Part shown: positions 11,509-49,439 of the stretch, one piece after another
How positions within the stretch are numbered: the first letter of the stretch is position 1
How the letters are laid out: each line of letters opens with the position of its first letter
Assembly (NCBI GenBank): GCA_002869885.2
Contig: NEWR02000018.1
Coordinates: 1-49,439, forward strand
Source: Nitrospira sp. CG24C
Lineage (GTDB): Bacteria; Nitrospirota; Nitrospiria; Nitrospirales; Nitrospiraceae
Direction: 5' to 3'
Length of the DNA: 49,439 nt
Translations under genes and position numbers: made by a program
The notes under the pieces: model-generated
The model's database searches: none
What the model saw: only the letters and a program-made list of their open reading frames with translations
What the model was told of the DNA's origin: nothing

Positions 11509-11584
11509 GAAAGTCATCAAGTCAAATGTCATCAAGTCGCTAAGAAGTCTGAGGACTTTATGACCTGATGACGTTATGACTTTC
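11509..11584. repeat. Tandem-word hairpin (word around GTCATCAAGTC)
   Basis: The left arm 11509-11538 and right arm 11554-11584 are imperfect inverted copies. Each arm is itself a repeat of short words (GTCATCAAGTC on the left, GACNTNATGAC on the right). It lies between the ATPase and permease genes of one exporter and overlaps the false 5' extension of the permease frame. It has the same architecture as the other tandem-word hairpins in this window but a different word. Confidence 0.7.
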
Positions 11585-12338: not shown

Positions 12339-12469
12339 TAGCAGGATACCGAAACTGGTTTGTTTTGTTTATCTGGTTCATCTGGTCTGTCTGGTTTAAC
12401 CAAACAAACGAGATAAACCAAATAATGGTCTTCTTCTGTTGGCGGGCTTTTTCAGGATCCTATTAGGTT
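12339..12469. repeat. Tandem-word hairpin element A (TGGTTTGT/TCTGG words), inverted orientation
   Basis: A long imperfect hairpin centred at 12397. Pairing outward from that base, 21 of 26 positions in 12371-12396 match the right arm, and most of the failures are C-A. The arms are made of short words such as TCTGGT, TTTGTTT and their complements. To the right, the minus strand carries CCTGAAAAAGCCCGCCAA (about 12438-12456), the same box found in the copies at 21726 and 37060. Ends resembling TAGCAGGA are seen on both sides. It lies between mobB and the ABC ATPase gene. Confidence 0.75.
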
Positions 12470-12994: not shown

Positions 12995-13070
12995 GATGGT
13001 CAATGGTCAATGGTCAATGGTGGACAAAAATGATTCCTGCCATCGACTAGTGACTGATGACCATTGACCT
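12995..13070. repeat. Tandem-word hairpin (GGTCAAT x3)
   Basis: Three exact copies of the heptamer GGTCAAT run at 12998-13018. Their complement appears once at 13058-13069, giving a 12-bp perfect stem (12998-13009 with 13058-13069). The word TGACTGATGACC just before the right arm looks like a decayed repeat unit. It fills the short gap between moeA and mobB. Confidence 0.7.
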
Positions 13071-36944: not shown

Positions 36945-37289
36945 CTGTGCGATGATAGCCAAACGCTCGGATGAACACAACGAAGGCTATCGGGGTTTAC
37001 CTTGACACCCCGACAGGATTTCCGATAGTAGTCACATGCGAATGACAAAGCCCTCAGACCTCCCGCAGGATGCTGAAAAAGTCCGCCAGCGTGAGAAGGC
37101 CGTTATTGGGTTTGTTTGGTCTGTTTCGTTTGTTTGGTTGAATGAAACCAACCAACTAAACCAAATCAACCAGATAAACAAAACAAACCAGTTTGAGCAT
37201 CCTACGGCTATTTTGTCATCAGCGCCATTGGTGAGATCCCAACGGTGTTTTTATATAAACCGAGGTTTCCCACAGCCTGCTAGGAGCTC
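36945..37289. other. 345-bp divergent gap filled mostly by a repeat element
   Basis: It separates the minus-strand recombinase from the plus-strand TPR/PBP gene. Nearly all of it from 37060 to 37283 is the hairpin element described separately. The left 100 bases must hold the recombinase promoter; I could not pick out a convincing one. Confidence 0.45.
37060..37283. repeat. Tandem-word hairpin element D (TTTGTTTGG words), longest copy
   Basis: The element starts GCAGGATGCTGAAAAAGTCC (37060) and GCCAGC. A hairpin follows with its apex at about 37141-37147; the left arm is built from TTTGGT, CTGTTTCG and TTTGTTTGG, the right from AACCAACC, AAACC and AACAAAACAAACC. About 18 of the innermost 27 pairs are Watson-Crick. 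It ends CACAGCCTGCTAG (37271-37283), an imperfect inverse of the start, so the whole copy has inverted ends like a mobile element. The ribosome binding site of the next gene lies at its right edge. Confidence 0.75.
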
Positions 37290-41316: not shown

Positions 41317-41605
41317 GGCAACCTCAAGTTCAGTCACCCGCCGTCTTGACGCCGACGCATTTGTCCCTTCTTCTTTCCCCCTGAGGCACTGCACTGCAAC
41401 TTCCCACCCTGACCATTTTGATCTGACAAGCCGTACCATCAAATGTTACGCGCAGGAAATCTGCCTGTAACATTGCCCCCCTAACGAGGGATTGTGGGAG
41501 GCAGTCTACAAAATTTACACTACGTTATCTTTTCGTTGGATAGCCCCAAGGAGTGTTCGTCCTGCTTGCAGTGCTACCTCGATTCCTCACATTAAGGAAC
41601 TGACC

Positions 41606-43153
41606 ATGGAGACGCTCACATCGGCGAAGGGGACCATACCGTTTCACAGTCCTACCAACAGAGGGACTTGGCGTCAGGTCTTGTGTCTGCTGACGCTGGC
41701 CGCGCTGAGCCTCACCATAAATGCCTGCGGGGGCGGAAACGATTCTCCTCAGACCGCGCGACAGATTGTGGCCCAGCTCGTACAGCAGGGCTATCTCAAG
41801 GCCTCCAATACCGAGGCCGGTGACGGATTTGGGTACAGCCTTGCACTCGCCGGCGACACCCTGGTCGTGGGGGCGCCTGGCGAGGCCAGTGCCGCGACTG
41901 GAATCAATGGCACGCAAGGGGACAACAGCGCTGTGAATAGCGGCGCGGTCTACATCTTCACCCGTACGAACGGAGTCTGGAGCCAGCAGGCCTATCTGAA
42001 AGCCTCCAATACTGAAGCCGATGACGTGTTTGGGTGGAGCCTCGCGCTCGCCGGTGAGACCCTGGTCGTGGGGGCGCCTGGCGAGGCCAGTGCCGATGGC
42101 GACCAAACGGACAACAGCGCCCAGGACAGTGGTGCGGTCTATGTCTTCACCCGTACGAACGGAGTCTGGAGCCAGCAGGCCTATGTGAAGGCTTCCAATA
42201 CCGGGGCCGGTGACCTATTCGGTATCAGCATCGCAGTCGCTGGCGACACCTTGGCCGTGGGAGCATTTTTCGAGGCCAGTGCCGCGACTGGAGTCAATGG
42301 CCCGGAAGCAGATAACAGCGCCCCAGGGAGTGGCGCGGTCTATGTCTTCACCCGCACGGGCAGCGACTGGAGCCAGCAGGCCTACGTGAAGGCCTCCAAT
42401 ACCGAAGCCAATGACGGATTTGGGGAGAGCGTCGCGCTCACCGGCGACACTCTGGCCGTGGGAGCGACTGGCGAGGCCAGTGCCGCAACCGGGGTGGATG
42501 GCGACGAGACGGACAACAGCGCCGTGGAAAGCGGGGCGGTCTATGTCTTCACCCGCACGGGCAGCACCTGGACCCAGCAGGCCTATGTGAAGGCCTCCAA
42601 TACTGAGGGCTTAGATTGGTTCGGATACAGTGTCGCGCTCGCGGAAGACACCCTGGCAGTGGGGGCGCTTTTCGAAGCCAGTGCCGCGACCGGGATTAAT
42701 GGCAATCAAGGGAACAACAGCGCCCCAGCGAGCGGCGCTACCTATGTCTTCACCCTCACGAACGGGGTCTGGAGTCAGCAGGCCTATGTGAAGGCCTCCA
42801 ATCCCGGGGGATTTGACCTGTTCGGCAGCAGCATCGCACTCACCGGAAACACCTTGGCCGTGGGGGCGTTTGGTGAAGCCAGCGCCAATGGCAACCAGAC
42901 GGACAACAGCGCACCGGAGAGTGGCGCCGCCTATGTCTTTACGCGCACGGGCAGCGACTGGAACCAGCAGGCCTATGTGAAGGCCTCCAATACCGGGAGC
43001 TTTGACCTGTTCGGCAGCAGCATCGCACTCGCCGGTGACACCCTGATCGTAGGGGCATTTTTTGAAGCCAGTGCCGCGACCGGGGTTAATGGCAATCAGG
43101 GGGATAACAGCGCCCCGGACAGCGGCGCTGCCTATGTCTTCTCACTGCAGTAA
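41606..43153 (+). CDS. FG-GAP seven-repeat beta-propeller lipoprotein
   Basis: A 515-residue lipoprotein (lipobox TINAC, Cys41, then GGG). Seven near-identical repeats follow, each starting Y-L/V-KASN and containing FG-x-S-x-AL, DTL-x-VGA, EASA, DNSA, SGA-x-YVFT and GVWSQQA or a variant. Seven FG-GAP repeats is the number of blades in integrin-type propellers. Repeat starts at DNA level (TAT/TAC of the first residue) are 41792, 41993, 42182, 42383, 42584, 42785 and 42974, so units are 201 or 189 bp. The start ATG at 41606 has AAGGA at good spacing; the frame is open from 41492. Probably surface-exposed and adhesive or ligand-binding; that is inference. Confidence 0.88.
   Translation: METLTSAKGTIPFHSPTNRGTWRQVLCLLTLAALSLTINACGGGNDSPQTARQIVAQLVQQGYLKASNTEAGDGFGYSLALAGDTLVVGAPGEASAATGINGTQGDNSAVNSGAVYIFTRTNGVWSQQAYLKASNTEADDVFGWSLALAGETLVVGAPGEASADGDQTDNSAQDSGAVYVFTRTNGVWSQQAYVKASNTGAGDLFGISIAVAGDTLAVGAFFEASAATGVNGPEADNSAPGSGAVYVFTRTGSDWSQQAYVKASNTEANDGFGESVALTGDTLAVGATGEASAATGVDGDETDNSAVESGAVYVFTRTGSTWTQQAYVKASNTEGLDWFGYSVALAEDTLAVGALFEASAATGINGNQGNNSAPASGATYVFTLTNGVWSQQAYVKASNPGGFDLFGSSIALTGNTLAVGAFGEASANGNQTDNSAPESGAAYVFTRTGSDWNQQAYVKASNTGSFDLFGSSIALAGDTLIVGAFFEASAATGVNGNQGDNSAPDSGAAYVFSLQ
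41792..43150 (+). repeat. Seven tandem 189/201-bp coding repeats
   Basis: Unit lengths are 201, 189, 201, 201, 201 and 189 bp, with a final truncated unit of about 177 bp before the stop codon. The 12-bp difference is a four-residue deletion in the ATGxxG segment (units 2 and 6). High DNA identity between units implies recent expansion or gene conversion, and a risk of assembly collapse. Confidence 0.9.
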
Positions 43154-44482: not shown

Positions 44483-45166
44483 ATGCGAATACTGTTGGTT
44501 GAAGACGATCTGAACCTCGCGCAGTTCATCCGCAAAGGGTTGAAGGAGGAACAGTATGCGGTGGACTTCGCGGCCGATGGCGAAGAAGGGTTGGCCTTGG
44601 CCTTGGCAAATCCTTACGATCTTTTGATCCTCGACATCATGTTGCCTAAGCTCGATGGCCTCACGCTCTGCCGCCGCGTCCGGGCCGCGGGAAACGGGAC
44701 TCCGGTCCTGTTGTTGACCGCGCGCAATACCCTGGAGACCAAGGTCTCCGGTTTCGATACAGGTGCGGACCAATTTTTACCGAAGCCGTTCGCTTTCGTC
44801 GAGCTCCTGGCTCGAGTCCGGGCCTTGCTGCGCCGGGGAGGCCCACAACAATTGATCCGCCTCAAAGCAGCCGACCTGGAGTTGGATCCGGCTTCTCACC
44901 GCGTGTGGCGAGCCGGGCAAGAAATTCCGCTGACAAATAAAGAATATGCCCTCCTGGAGTTCCTCTTACGAAACAAGAATCGGGTGTTGACGCGAACGGC
45001 GATCATCGAGCATGTGTGGGACATCAGTTATGACCCCATGACGAACATCGTGGACGCCCATATCCGGGCTCTCCGCGCGAAGATCGACCGGGATTTTTCA
45101 CCCCAGTTGATCGCCACGGTACGCGGTGCCGGGTACATGCTGGAGGAGGCGGAATCGCCCACATGA
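44483..45166 (+). CDS. OmpR/PhoB-family response regulator
   Basis: A 227-residue regulator: receiver domain (1-118) with VEDD, phosphoacceptor Asp51 (LLILDIMLP), Thr in LLTA and Lys101 in LPKPF, and a C-terminal winged-helix domain (about 125-222) with LTNKEYALLEFLLRN and DAHIRALRAKID. The closest well-known relatives are CusR/CopR/QseB-type regulators. The ribosome binding site GGAG precedes it. It overlaps the sensor kinase gene by four bases (ATGA). OmpR-type proteins bind tandem heptamers with an 11-bp period, exactly what is found downstream in front of nxrA. Confidence 0.94.
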   Translation: MRILLVEDDLNLAQFIRKGLKEEQYAVDFAADGEEGLALALANPYDLLILDIMLPKLDGLTLCRRVRAAGNGTPVLLLTARNTLETKVSGFDTGADQFLPKPFAFVELLARVRALLRRGGPQQLIRLKAADLELDPASHRVWRAGQEIPLTNKEYALLEFLLRNKNRVLTRTAIIEHVWDISYDPMTNIVDAHIRALRAKIDRDFSPQLIATVRGAGYMLEEAESPT

Positions 45167-46596
45167 AGTCCCTGCATAGTTTGATCCGCCAGTCTGCGCT
45201 CATTCTGATGGCAGCGCTGCTCCTGGTCTTTTCTGTTCTGACCTACGCCGGAGGCGATGCCTTGTTGCACCGCTTTGTGGATGGCAGGCTGTTCGGGTTG
45301 GCGGAGACGATGGCCATGATCCTTGAGCAGCACCCCAACATTATCGAGAGTTCCAGTGAGGAATATGCGCGTGCAGCTGAGTTGATTCGAGACAAAAATG
45401 AAGAGCGCGAGGTGACCCATTCGCTTCGGATCTTTTCCCCAGATGGCCGACTGGTCTGGAATAGTCCCAACGCGGTGGCACAGACGCCGGTTCCCGATCA
45501 CGTATTCGAACAAGTCCGCCGTGGGAACAGCCTGTATAAAACCGCCGAGACATTGGATGGCAGGTGGCCGGTGCGACAGTTTTTCGTTCCGATTCCCCGG
45601 CAGGGCCCGGTACGGCACGTTCTGCAGGCCGAGGCATCACTGCTCCTATACCGGGAAACACTTATCGGTCTCGTGCTCCTACTGACCCTTGGATCGGGGA
45701 TCATCCTTTTCGTTGCCTGGATAGGCAGTGGGTGGCTAGCCAAGAAAGTGCTGACTCCGATCGAGGTCTTGAGTACCGGCGCTGAAACGATATCCGAAGC
45801 AGACCTGGGGAAACGACTCACTCTGGATTCACCTTACCCGGAATTCCATCGGCTCACCCAGTCGTTCAACTCCGTGATGGATCGGTTCCAACGGAGCGGC
45901 GAAACTCAGCGGAGGTTTTGCGACATAGCCGCCCACGAAATGAAGACCCCCTTGACCATCCTGCAGGGAAACTTGGATGTCGCGCTCCTGAAAGCCAGAA
46001 CCACGGAAGAATATCGCGAAGCCCTCCTCAACAATCTTGAGCAGGTCGGGCGGCTGATTGCCTTGACCCGTTCCCTGTTGACCCTTGCGAACTTTACGAG
46101 CGGCAAGCCTCCCGTTCACCTCGTGCCACTCGCCCTAGAACCCTTGATTCAAGATCTGATAGAAGAACTGACCCTGCTTGCCGATGACCGCAGAATCACC
46201 TTGTCGTTTGAATCCCAATCGGTGCCACCCATTCTCGGCGATGCACAGTGGATCAAGCAGGCGTTGATCAACCTCCTTGACAACGCGCTGCACTACACAC
46301 CGGCTGGTGGAGTCGTGACTGTCCGCTTACAGGCTGTCAGAGACGAGGTCACTGTGGCTGTCGAGGATACGGGCCATGGGATCGAACCGGAACATCTTCC
46401 CCATCTCTTCGAGCGGTTTTATCGAACCGATTGGGCTAGGGCGAAAGAGGCAGGAGGTACCGGACTTGGGCTGCCTATCGTCAAGGAAATCGTGGAGGCC
46501 CACGGCGGGACCGTTTCGGTCACAAGCCAAGTCGAGAAGGGCTCGGTCTTTACCCTGCGGTTGCCGGTTTCAACACACCAGACGATTCCTGCATAG
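45163..46596 (+). CDS. Membrane sensor histidine kinase
   Basis: A 477-residue kinase. It has two membrane segments (about 10-32 and 165-188) around a periplasmic sensor region of about 130 residues, and a HAMP linker (SGWLAKKVLTPIEVLSTGAETI). The HisKA domain has His258 in AAHEMKTPLT and the HATPase domain has the N-box LINLLDNALHYTP, G1 VEDTGHGIEPEHL, F-box FERFYR and G2 GGTGLGLPIV. The layout is that of CusS/heavy-metal-type sensors, but the sensor region gives no ligand clue. It is the cognate kinase of the response regulator it overlaps. The next gene, 266 bases further, is nxrA. Confidence 0.94.
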   Translation: MKSLHSLIRQSALILMAALLLVFSVLTYAGGDALLHRFVDGRLFGLAETMAMILEQHPNIIESSSEEYARAAELIRDKNEEREVTHSLRIFSPDGRLVWNSPNAVAQTPVPDHVFEQVRRGNSLYKTAETLDGRWPVRQFFVPIPRQGPVRHVLQAEASLLLYRETLIGLVLLLTLGSGIILFVAWIGSGWLAKKVLTPIEVLSTGAETISEADLGKRLTLDSPYPEFHRLTQSFNSVMDRFQRSGETQRRFCDIAAHEMKTPLTILQGNLDVALLKARTTEEYREALLNNLEQVGRLIALTRSLLTLANFTSGKPPVHLVPLALEPLIQDLIEELTLLADDRRITLSFESQSVPPILGDAQWIKQALINLLDNALHYTPAGGVVTVRLQAVRDEVTVAVEDTGHGIEPEHLPHLFERFYRTDWARAKEAGGTGLGLPIVKEIVEAHGGTVSVTSQVEKGSVFTLRLPVSTHQTIPA

Positions 46597-46667: not shown

Positions 46668-46695
46668 TCCGCCGCCCCGGGATCATGAAGATTTC

Positions 46696-46746
46696 TTCAT
46701 GACCCCTTCATCATCCCTTCATGACCTCTTCATCAAACGATCATGT
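46696..46746 (+). promoter_or_regulatory. Five heptamers at 11-bp spacing, probable OmpR/PhoB-type regulator binding array
   Basis: Heptamers start at exactly 11-bp steps: TTCATGA 46696-46702, TTCATCA 46707-46713, TTCATGA 46718-46724, TTCATCA 46729-46735 and ATCATGT 46740-46746. The four-base spacers (CCCC, TCCC, CCTC, AACG) are not conserved beyond being pyrimidine-rich, so the signal is in the heptamers. OmpR/PhoB-family regulators bind tandem heptamers one helical turn apart. The array ends 8 bp before a -10-like hexamer, as in activated promoters of this class. Confidence 0.75.
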
Positions 46747-46754
46747 GACAGAGC

Positions 46755-46760
46755 TAGAGT
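46755..46760 (+). promoter_or_regulatory. Candidate -10 hexamer of the nxrA promoter
   Basis: TAGAGT lies 8 bp after the last heptamer, with no separate good -35 element, the pattern of regulator-dependent promoters in which the bound activator replaces -35 contacts. It would place transcription start near 46767 and leave a leader of about 95 bases before the nxrA ATG. Confidence 0.4.
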
Positions 46761-46851
46761 AGCTGCCAACGGCTGAGATAGCAGCATTAAAGCTCTCCTT
46801 GTTAAGAGTTTAGAGATATCGCGTGGACTGATTGAAGCCCTCAACTGTAGG

Positions 46852-46857
46852 AGGTGT
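46852..46857 (+). promoter_or_regulatory. Ribosome binding site of nxrA
   Basis: GGAGGT at 46852-46857, inside TAGGAGGTGTGACC, lies five bases before the ATG at 46863. This is close to an ideal Shine-Dalgarno match, fitting a highly expressed gene. Confidence 0.85.
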
Positions 46858-46862
46858 GACCC

Positions 46863-49439
46863 ATGTTCTTATCACGGAGGCAGTTCTTAAAAGTCACAGC
46901 AGGGACGGTCGCCGCAGTGGCCGTCGCGGACAGAGTTCTGGCGTTGACCGCACTCCAGCCGGTCATTGAAGTCGGGAATCCACTGGGGGACTATCCGGAC
47001 CGGTCCTGGGAACGCGTGTATCACGACCAGTACCGCTACGATTCGTCCTTTACCTGGGTCTGTTCTCCGAATGACACCCATGCCTGCCGCGTCCGGGCTT
47101 TCGTCCGCAACGGCATCGTCATGCGAGTCGAGCAGAACTACGACCATCAAACCTATGAGGACCTCTATGGCAACCGCGGCACCTTTGCCCATAATCCCCG
47201 GATGTGCTTGAAGGGGTTTACCTTCCATCGCCGGGTCTATGGCCCCTATCGGTTGAAAGGGCCGTTGATGCGCAAAGGGTGGAAGGAGTGGATGGACGCC
47301 GGTTCGCCGGAGCTCACGTCGGAAACGAAGCGCAAGTACAAATTCGACAGCCGTTTCCTCGATGATATGTTGCGCGTGTCTTGGGACACGGCCTTTACCT
47401 ATGCGGCCAAGGCCATGATCATTATCGCCACGCGCTACAGTGGGGAAGCCGGGGCTCGTCGGCTGCGCGAGCAGGGGTATGCGCCGGAAATGATCGAGAT
47501 GATGAAGGGCGCGGGCACCCGCACGTTCAAGCATCGTGCTGGGATGCCGGTCCTCGGGATCATCGGCAAGATGGGGAACACCCGAATGAACGGTGGGGTC
47601 AATGCGCTGTTAGACAGCTGGATCCGGAAGGTCGGCCCGGAGCAAGCCCAGGGCGGCCGCTATTGGTCGAACTATACCTGGCACGGCGACCAGAACCCGT
47701 CGCATCCTTGGATATTCGGCGTCCAGGGGTCTGACTGCGACCTTTCCGATATGCGTTTCTCCAAACTCAACACCAGTTGGGGGAAGAACTTCGTTGAAAA
47801 CAAGATGCCGGAAGCCCACTGGAAGTTGGAATGTATCGAACGGGGCGCCAGGATCGTGGTCATCACGCCGGAATATAATCCCACCGCCTATCGGGCGGAC
47901 TACTGGATGCCGCTCCGCCCCGCGTCGGACGGTGCGATTTTCTTGGGCGCCATGAAGATCATCGTCGATGAGAATATGCACGACGTCGACTTCCTGAAGG
48001 GCTACACGGATTCGCCCATGCTCGTCCGTACCGACACCTTGCAGTTCCTCGACCCACGCGATGTGATTGCCGACTATAAGTTTCCGGACTTCTCCAACAG
48101 CTACTCGGGCCGGGTGCAGTCCCTCAAGCCGGCACAGGTTGAGAGGCTCGGCGGGATGATGGTCTGGGACCTCAACAAGAAACAGGCGGTCCCGCTGCAC
48201 CGTGAACTGGTCGGCTGGCACTATCAGAACAGCGGGATCGACGCCGCCCTGACCGGGACCTATCGCGTGAAGCTGCTCAATGGGCGAGAAGTCGATGCGA
48301 TGCCGGTCTGGCAGATGTACATGGTCCACTTCCAGGATTACGATCTGGACACCGTCCATCAGATCTGCCGGACGCCGAAGGATCTGCTGGTCCGGTGGGC
48401 GCGGGATTCCGGTTCGATCAAGCCCGCCGCGATTCATAACGGCGAAGGGACCTGTCACTATTTCCATCAAACCATCAACTCCCGCGGCGCCGCGATGGTG
48501 CTCATCGCCACCGGCAACGTGGGCAAGTTCGGCACCGGGCAACATACCTGGGCCGGCAACTACAAGGCCGGAACATGGACAGCCACGCCCTGGTCTGGTG
48601 CGGGCATAGCGGTGCACACAGGGGAAGATCCCTTCAACATCACCCTGGATCCGAACGCGCACGGCAAGGAAATCAAGACCGCCTCGTATTACTACGGCGA
48701 AGAGGTCGGCTACTGGAACCATGGCGACACGGCCCTGATTGTCAACACGCCGAAGTACGGACGCAAGGTGTTTACGGGCAAGACGCACATGCCGACCCCG
48801 AGCAAATTCCGGTGGGTCGTCAACGTGAACGTGCTCAATAACGCCAAGCACCACTACGACATGGTCAAGAACGTCGATCCGAACATTGAGACCCTGATCA
48901 CACAGGACGTTGAGATGACCTCGGACATCAACCACAACGATATCGCCTTCGCCGCAAACACCTGGATGGAGTTCACCTATCCCGAAATGACGGTGACAGT
49001 GTCCAATCCCTGGGTACAGATTTGGAAGGGCGGGATCCGGCCCCTGTACGATACCCGCAATGACCTCGATACCTTTGCCGGCGTCGCGGCGAAGTTGTCG
49101 GACATGACCGGCGACCAGCGGATGAAAGACTACTTCAAGTTCGTCTTCGAAAACCGGGTCGATGTCTATGCCCAGCGAATGCTCGATGCCTCCAGCACCT
49201 TCTACGGCTACAGCGCCGACGTCATGCTGAAGTCGGAAAAGGGCTGGATGGTCATGGTCCGCACCTATCCACGCGTGCCTTTCTGGGAAGAGACGAACGA
49301 GTCAAAGCCCATGTGGACCAGGACCGGCCGGTTCGAAAACTACCGGACCGAACCGGAGGCGATCGAATACGGCGAGAACTTCATCTCGCACCGAGAGGGC
49401 ACGGAAGCGACCCCCTATCTGCCGAATGCCATCATGACC
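46863..49439 (+). CDS. nxrA: Nitrite oxidoreductase alpha subunit (3' end beyond the window)
   Basis: 859 codons are present without a stop; the family is about 1,150 residues long. The protein opens with a twin-arginine leader (SRRQFLK, Arg5-Arg6). The [4Fe-4S] site near the N-terminus reads C67-SPN-D71-THA-C75 with a further Cys at 115. The YTWHGDQNP stretch carries the likely Mo ligand Asp276. Regions such as GEAGARRLREQGYAPEMIEMMKG, DLNKKQAVPLHRE and NNAKHHYDMVKNVDPNIE match Nitrospira-type NxrA as I remember it. It is the catalytic Mo-bis-MGD subunit that oxidises nitrite to nitrate on the periplasmic side; NxrB should follow. Upstream is the two-component system and its candidate binding array. 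Confidence 0.95.
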   Translation, partial: MFLSRRQFLKVTAGTVAAVAVADRVLALTALQPVIEVGNPLGDYPDRSWERVYHDQYRYDSSFTWVCSPNDTHACRVRAFVRNGIVMRVEQNYDHQTYEDLYGNRGTFAHNPRMCLKGFTFHRRVYGPYRLKGPLMRKGWKEWMDAGSPELTSETKRKYKFDSRFLDDMLRVSWDTAFTYAAKAMIIIATRYSGEAGARRLREQGYAPEMIEMMKGAGTRTFKHRAGMPVLGIIGKMGNTRMNGGVNALLDSWIRKVGPEQAQGGRYWSNYTWHGDQNPSHPWIFGVQGSDCDLSDMRFSKLNTSWGKNFVENKMPEAHWKLECIERGARIVVITPEYNPTAYRADYWMPLRPASDGAIFLGAMKIIVDENMHDVDFLKGYTDSPMLVRTDTLQFLDPRDVIADYKFPDFSNSYSGRVQSLKPAQVERLGGMMVWDLNKKQAVPLHRELVGWHYQNSGIDAALTGTYRVKLLNGREVDAMPVWQMYMVHFQDYDLDTVHQICRTPKDLLVRWARDSGSIKPAAIHNGEGTCHYFHQTINSRGAAMVLIATGNVGKFGTGQHTWAGNYKAGTWTATPWSGAGIAVHTGEDPFNITLDPNAHGKEIKTASYYYGEEVGYWNHGDTALIVNTPKYGRKVFTGKTHMPTPSKFRWVVNVNVLNNAKHHYDMVKNVDPNIETLITQDVEMTSDINHNDIAFAANTWMEFTYPEMTVTVSNPWVQIWKGGIRPLYDTRNDLDTFAGVAAKLSDMTGDQRMKDYFKFVFENRVDVYAQRMLDASSTFYGYSADVMLKSEKGWMVMVRTYPRVPFWEETNESKPMWTRTGRFENYRTEPEAIEYGENFISHREGTEATPYLPNAIMT

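Follow-up and report, generated by a model that had tools for sequence, protein, structure and literature searches.

The window analysed here is the whole 49,439-nucleotide stretch of contig NEWR02000018.1 from Nitrospira sp. CG24C. Towards its end, genes for a response regulator and a sensor histidine kinase are followed on the same strand by an array of short repeats and a copy of nxrA, the nitrite oxidoreductase gene at which the contig sequence breaks off (Table 1). Pfam domains bear out the first-pass annotation in placing an OmpR-family regulator and its kinase just upstream of the array and in the same direction. The closest named subfamily for both proteins is that of the CopR/CusR/SilR heavy-metal systems (TIGR01387/TIGR01386), although neither reaches the curated cut-off: the regulator scores 253.2 bits against TIGR01387 (cut-off 279.2) and the kinase 256.6 bits against TIGR01386 (cut-off 292.55). 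Within the regulator, the segment MTNIVDxHIRALRxKxD, our candidate for the recognition helix, is nearly identical across the nine regulators compared, including a more distant metal-type one.

The five heptamers of the array all lie where they had initially been placed, at steps of 11 bp, and the -10-like hexamer that had been proposed to follow them is likewise present as TAGAGT. The first direct box begins 100 bp past the kinase stop and faces an inverted copy of itself, and ATCATGTGA is a frequent last box among the corresponding elements of relatives. Tandem direct half-sites that are one helical turn apart and abut a -10 correspond to the layout of an OmpR/PhoB-type promoter. Since TAGAGT stands 8 bp after box 5, a transcript start near 46767 is the natural prediction. 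A consensus scan of the array promoter found no sigma-70 -35/-10 pair on the plus strand; the minus strand has one.

Table 1. Features of the regulator-kinase-nxrA region, in coordinates of the window
Feature	Position	Strand	Basis and remarks
OmpR/PhoB-family response regulator, CopR/CusR-like	44483..45166	+	receiver PF00072 and winged-helix PF00486 (Trans_reg_C), above cut-off
Sensor histidine kinase of the pair (HAMP, HisKA, HATPase_c)	45163..46596	+	Pfam; 4-bp overlap with regulator gene
Inverted box TCATGAA (TTCATGA on minus strand), facing box 1	46683..46689	-	sequence; conserved in cassette alignment
Direct box 1, TTCATGA	46696..46702	+	sequence
Direct box 2, TTCATCA	46707..46713	+	sequence
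Direct box 3, TTCATGA	46718..46724	+	sequence
Direct box 4, TTCATCA	46729..46735	+	sequence
Direct box 5, ATCATGT, promoter-proximal	46740..46746	+	sequence, cassette alignment
22-bp unit, two tandem copies	46696..46717 and 46718..46739	+	tandem repeat finder, period 22; box 5 additional
-10-like hexamer TAGAGT	46755..46760	+	8 bp past box 5, 15 nt from last-box start
nxrA-type leader up to start codon	46821..46862	+	largely common to nxrA copies with other promoter
nxrA	46863..49439	+	859 aa in the window, then 100-N scaffold gap, then nxrB C-terminus

The exact dyad TTCATSA-N4-TTCATSA occurs three times in the 2.99-Mb genome, each time within the array, and a reversed control pattern has no match in the same genome. 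When one mismatch to TTCATSA was allowed, the longest chain of boxes at 11-bp steps in the intergenic region comprised four boxes, compared with a maximum of two among 20,000 mononucleotide shuffles of this region, none of which contained a four-box chain. At zero, one and two mismatches, the longest real chains had 4, 4 and 5 boxes; when the window was shuffled 30 times within 500-bp blocks, the longest had 1, 2 and 3. The array is not unique in its length: four TTCAT boxes at 11-bp steps are found in 10 of 175 Nitrospira-family genomes, CG24C included. Eight such four-box arrays that were opened (L293-L300), all from genus g14, each precede another lipoprotein-like gene, and all eight have TANNNT 15 nt from the last box.

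A scan of 32 genomes of the genus with the pattern TTCATN6TTCATN7TCAT returned 26 matches in 18 genomes and none for the reversed control. The alignment reveals a conserved cassette in which an inverted box is combined with direct TTCAT boxes, as a rule three, at 11-bp spacing, and TANNNT follows at 15 nt counted from where the last box starts. The TA of the hexamer is invariant in all 21 aligned cassettes, and of 22 three-box matches located downstream of the kinase, 21 have TANNNT at this offset of 15. For a profile that excludes the CG24C genome, we used these 21 cassettes of 60 bases each, i.e., the 26 distinct stretches minus three from the CG24C array, a deviating site in genome G002 and one duplicate over 60 bases. 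This profile still detects the CG24C site (E 4.6e-8; E 1.8e-4 for the promoter-proximal part), and no second strong match was present in the CG24C genome (G000) among the best 150 of 1380 candidates scored, the next one elsewhere having E 0.042. Across the family, matches at E 1e-4 occur in at least 114 of 175 genomes and in 5 of 22 genera, in a search that scored fewer candidates and applied stricter filters than the single-genome search; the boxes define a candidate regulon of this breadth. Together, conservation and layout support the boxes as a conserved promoter element that is predicted to be of the OmpR/PhoB type.

The profile also bears on how the CG24C array may have acquired its additional boxes. 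Unaltered, the site reaches 25.8 bits with the start fixed at 46682 and 33.5 bits in its best register, whereas removal of 22 bp raises the score to 72.9 bits, which falls within the leave-one-out range of the 21 profile cassettes (25.3 to 83.8 bits). Deleting 11 bp or 33 bp yields 32.1 and 28.1 bits, respectively. The best reading of these scores is that the CG24C array represents a usual three-box cassette that would have grown to five boxes via a 22-bp tandem duplication.

To relate the cassette to the two-component system, we collected 60 loci with relatives of the kinase, of which 53 are close (L228-L280; 52 with the regulator at hand) and seven unrelated. Of these, 51 offer at least 300 nt after the kinase stop; on the plus strand and at E 0.01, a cassette lies no more than 1.6 kb beyond the stop in 46 of the 51 and no more than 300 nt beyond it in 37. 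The five loci in which no cassette was found within 1.6 kb are L229, L239, L253, L271 and L274. Loci L228-L235 come from genomes that supplied profile sites, and L278 matches a position in genome G009, which supplied a different site; for L236-L280 alone, the count within 1.6 kb is 39 of 43. None of the seven unrelated kinase loci carries a cassette. Conversely, genes related to the regulator or the kinase lie no more than about 1.5 kb from the cassette match in 11 of 14 loci newly obtained in the family search (L186-L199). At the genome level, a regulator of at least 69% identity goes with the strict motif, which is present in 14 of the 15 genomes that encode such a regulator versus 4 of 17 without one (Fisher p 7.7e-5, relatedness ignored). 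The four genomes with the motif and no detected regulator are G002, in which the site has no inverted box and lies in another regulator-rich locus, G009, which retains part of the kinase (L278), and G010 and G011, whose assemblies are fragmented (90% and 79% complete). In G006, the regulator is present and the strict motif absent. A paralogue of the regulator with 51-54% identity also occurs in genomes without a cassette match (G013, G014, G025, G030). Because the cassette falls within 1.6 kb after the kinase in so many loci and the putative recognition helix is conserved, the neighbouring regulator-kinase pair is the strongest candidate for binding the boxes. In four relatives (G004, G012, G015, G023), a cassette is also located upstream of the regulator gene, which suggests autoregulation there; the profile search found none upstream of the regulator's own gene in CG24C.

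Conservation of the array in front of other nxrA genes had been set beforehand as a check of the initial proposal that this pair directly controls nxrA. This expectation failed, as only 2 of 42 nxrA sources, CG24C and G018, carry the cassette in front of the gene; L219 and L220, also among the 42, comprise just 68 and 34 nt before nxrA and could not show a cassette. Starts of nxrA were located in at least 136 of the 175 family genomes, and comparison by eye of these starts with the cassette places revealed no third case among the matches listed. Of the initial proposal, a conserved OmpR/PhoB-type element linked to the pair stands; a control element specific to nxrA is rejected on the count of 2 in 42. 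Direct control of the nxrA copy remains plausible in this lineage and one relative, and we do not propose it as a rule for nxrA, because the same cassette precedes other genes in relatives and so few nxrA sources have it.

What most nxrA copies carry instead is an element resembling a sigma-54 promoter. We scored GG-N10-GC elements against the 12 positions of the sigma-54 consensus in 33 loci, two of which were dropped as they had no nxrA start, leaving 31 upstream regions, 29 of them without the array. At least 8 of 12 positions matched in 28 of the 29 array-free regions (G009 reached 7), and at least 9 of 12 in 21 of the 31 regions versus 1.67 expected from shuffles. The two array-bearing nxrA copies have no such element, their best score being 6 of 12; in the 260 bp upstream of nxrA in the window, this best match lies within the leader. 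On contig C2, the second nxrA copy of CG24C carries the sigma-54-like element 144 bp ahead of its start. Near the ribosome-binding site, the nxrA leader is retained in both array copies. A 41-nt leader stretch is 75.6% alike between CG24C and G018, a weak match (E 0.094) that is absent at that length from the other fetched loci. A conserved RNA hairpin was rejected, since the fold of 46767-46880 is no better than that of shuffles (z 0.41), and we therefore claim sequence likeness alone. Published accounts describe sigma-54-dependent regulators preceding most nxr loci and nxrAB_1 of N. moscoviensis without a regulator nearby (PMC6606698, PMC7522533), and one nxr cluster of N. moscoviensis, or a conserved nxrC cluster, is said there to hold another two-component system (PMC12342949). 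A search of the open-licence literature found no paper on control of nxrA of the kind considered here.

The nxrA reading frame in the window is truncated at 49439 by a 100-N scaffold gap (L084, 6441-6540) that begins there, 2.7 kb downstream of the array; the assembly lacks the end of nxrA and most of nxrB. The last residues of NxrB follow the gap, and the array thus seems to head an nxrAB pair. Interpretation of the 949-aa frame as a truncated pseudogene was ruled out on the same grounds, as the frame enters the gap and the NxrB C-terminus follows it. In line with a Nitrospira NxrA, the protein matches the molybdopterin oxidoreductase family PF00384 above cut-off, and its TAT_signal score (21.7 bits) is slightly under the cut-off of 22.7. 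Because the score against TIGR03479 is far below the cut-off (256.1 of 984.75 bits), the name nitrite oxidoreductase rests on near-identity to nxrA copies that are followed by nxrB and on their length of 1145 aa, which matches a published nxrA of 3,438 bp (PMC7522533).

In G018, nxrA (L078, 3503-6069) stands behind a second cassette, lacks about 97 nt and changes frame, which may be real or an assembly fault. Interruptions in this part of the gene occur in the nxrA copies of G019 and G002 as well, again either genuine or due to assembly. In an nxrA tree, the CG24C array copy is placed beside a sigma-54-type copy from G031, and the G018 copy elsewhere within the same larger clade. Gene order downstream of the cassette also differs between the two. 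In CG24C, the cassette is followed by nxrA, nxrB and a 212-aa lipoprotein-like protein without a Pfam match, which is 79% identical to the product of the gene directly behind the kinase and the first cassette in G018. As gene order differs and the tree does not join the two array copies, the two cassette-nxrA junctions may stem either from one old capture common to both, with later gene conversion, or from two captures.

In relatives, cassettes stand before genes for RND pumps, carbonic anhydrase, a lipoprotein-like protein and a nucleotidyltransferase. We sampled ten proteins whose genes lie no further than about 1.8 kb behind a cassette or, in CG24C, behind nxrAB. Nine of these have Pfam matches, namely to an AcrB-type pump, an outer-membrane efflux protein, carbonic anhydrase, an amino-acid permease, an S24-like protein, a nucleotidyltransferase, an NmrA-like protein, DUF2231 and a lone receiver domain. 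Their position behind cassettes suggests that these genes are regulatory targets. In G026, genes for a DUF2231 protein, efflux proteins and a CusA/CzcA pump (1169.5 bits against a cut-off of 701.45) follow the cassette, together with the gene of a regulator about 72% identical to that of CG24C, whose 283.2 bits pass the TIGR01387 cut-off.

Taken together, we consider it rather probable that the array is the control site of the adjacent CopR/CusR-like pair, which would act as an activator in the manner of PhoB, and that one nxrAB copy has been rewired to this pair while its cassette expanded from three to five boxes. In this mechanism, the regulator, once phosphorylated in response to its signal, would bind the TTCAT boxes head to tail on one face of the DNA. 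The last box would occupy the place of the -35 hexamer, so that the bound regulator would assist RNA polymerase at TAGAGT, by analogy with PhoB at Pho boxes. The cassette would be an old partner of the gene pair, kept just downstream of the kinase in most of the relatives examined, with the genes behind it varying by species. In CG24C and one relative, nxrA would have come to lie behind the cassette, keeping its own leader and losing the sigma-54-like element. Such a promoter swap would have moved one nitrite oxidoreductase operon to a new switch, with the second copy retaining the usual element, and the 22-bp duplication would be expected to raise cooperativity or occupancy.

The closest known systems each have some features in common with this arrangement. 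PhoB half-sites are spaced 11 bp apart within a TGTCA-like Pho box; like the Pho box of E. coli, the array consists of tandem direct repeats and covers the -35 region, and unlike it, the boxes read TTCATSA, an inverted box is added and cassettes contain three to five direct boxes. The boxes known for CusR are palindromic, in contrast to the tandem boxes of CG24C. CreB boxes (TTCAC-N6-TTCAC) have the same 11-bp tandem layout and a near-identical core, yet the CreB model scores the CG24C regulator at only 159.2 of 273, far under cut-off, and a literature search found no paper with a printed tandem-box parallel for CreB. Sigma-54-linked control of nxrAB in Nitrospira concerns the identical target operon, but the array copy in CG24C has a two-component cassette in place of the sigma-54-like element.

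Several other explanations have to be weighed against activation by the adjacent pair. That the repeats are a product of chance or a microsatellite without regulatory function is highly improbable: while the 22-bp tandem duplication does resemble slippage, the cassette is conserved in five genera at a constant step to the -10, and the observed array is beyond the reach of shuffles. OmpR-family proteins have their box architecture in common, which would permit a different regulator of this family to bind the boxes, and a first look at the CG24C genome gave 72 candidate regulator matches, though only two passed E 1e-60. We regard this as very unlikely in view of the association of the cassette with this particular pair, the conserved putative recognition helix and the arrangement in G026, where a cassette heads a gene run that ends in a regulator/kinase pair of this kind.

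An alternative that accepts both the cassette and its link to the two-component system holds that the nxrA behind it is an assembly chimera, with similar nxr copies attached to a flank that is not their own. One study describes nxr copies as highly similar and multi-copy NXR as a complication for assembly (PMC12342949), and the gap after nxrA, a further 100-N gap in the second nxrA copy on C2 and the broken frame in G018 would all fit such an error. However, no N separates the array from the nxrA start, a second species (G018) has the cassette with its first direct box 188 bp upstream of nxrA, and the leaders of both copies show the weak likeness described above, making a chimera distinctly unlikely. 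A last alternative concerns the direction of control. Boxes that overlap the -35 place would be compatible with blocking of polymerase, in which case the bound regulator would shut nxrAB off until a signal releases it. We judge repression unlikely, as the constant 15-nt step to the -10 fits an activator standing in for the -35, in the manner of the PhoB model (PMC3348028), and the lack of a plus-strand sigma-70 pair fits the same arrangement. According to PMC3348028 and PMC4415409, PhoB dimers bind direct repeats with their effector domains head to tail, at a site over the -35 region.

The CG24C genome encodes a protein of the AmoA/PmoA family (G000:C12:61881-62585, 305.9 bits), and the organism is therefore probably a complete ammonia oxidiser. 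A broader proposal, to which we give slightly less than an even chance, is that in this relative with an ammonia-oxidase-family gene nxrAB moved from sigma-54 to stress-type two-component control, with the operon as the sole recognisable genomic target, the extra boxes tuning the response and the two nxrA copies answering different signals. If true, two differently controlled copies would account in part for the retention of several near-identical nxr copies in Nitrospira, whose individual purpose and control the literature treats as an open question (PMC6606698). One nxrAB copy with a different promoter class offers a concrete, testable case, and the boxes provide a handle on the role of this common two-component system.

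The window contains further repeats at a distance from the array. Tandem repeats of 9 bp, AACCAAATA (with GGTTTGTTT nearby), occur at 12398-12425 and 37109-37191 and are possibly another regulator array. Perfect 7-bp ATGGTCA repeats (3.7 copies, 12996-13021) lie about 1.4 kb from 8/16-bp repeats (11511-11580), and a 201-bp repeat of about six copies (41783-43141) is located inside the reading frame 41492-43153.
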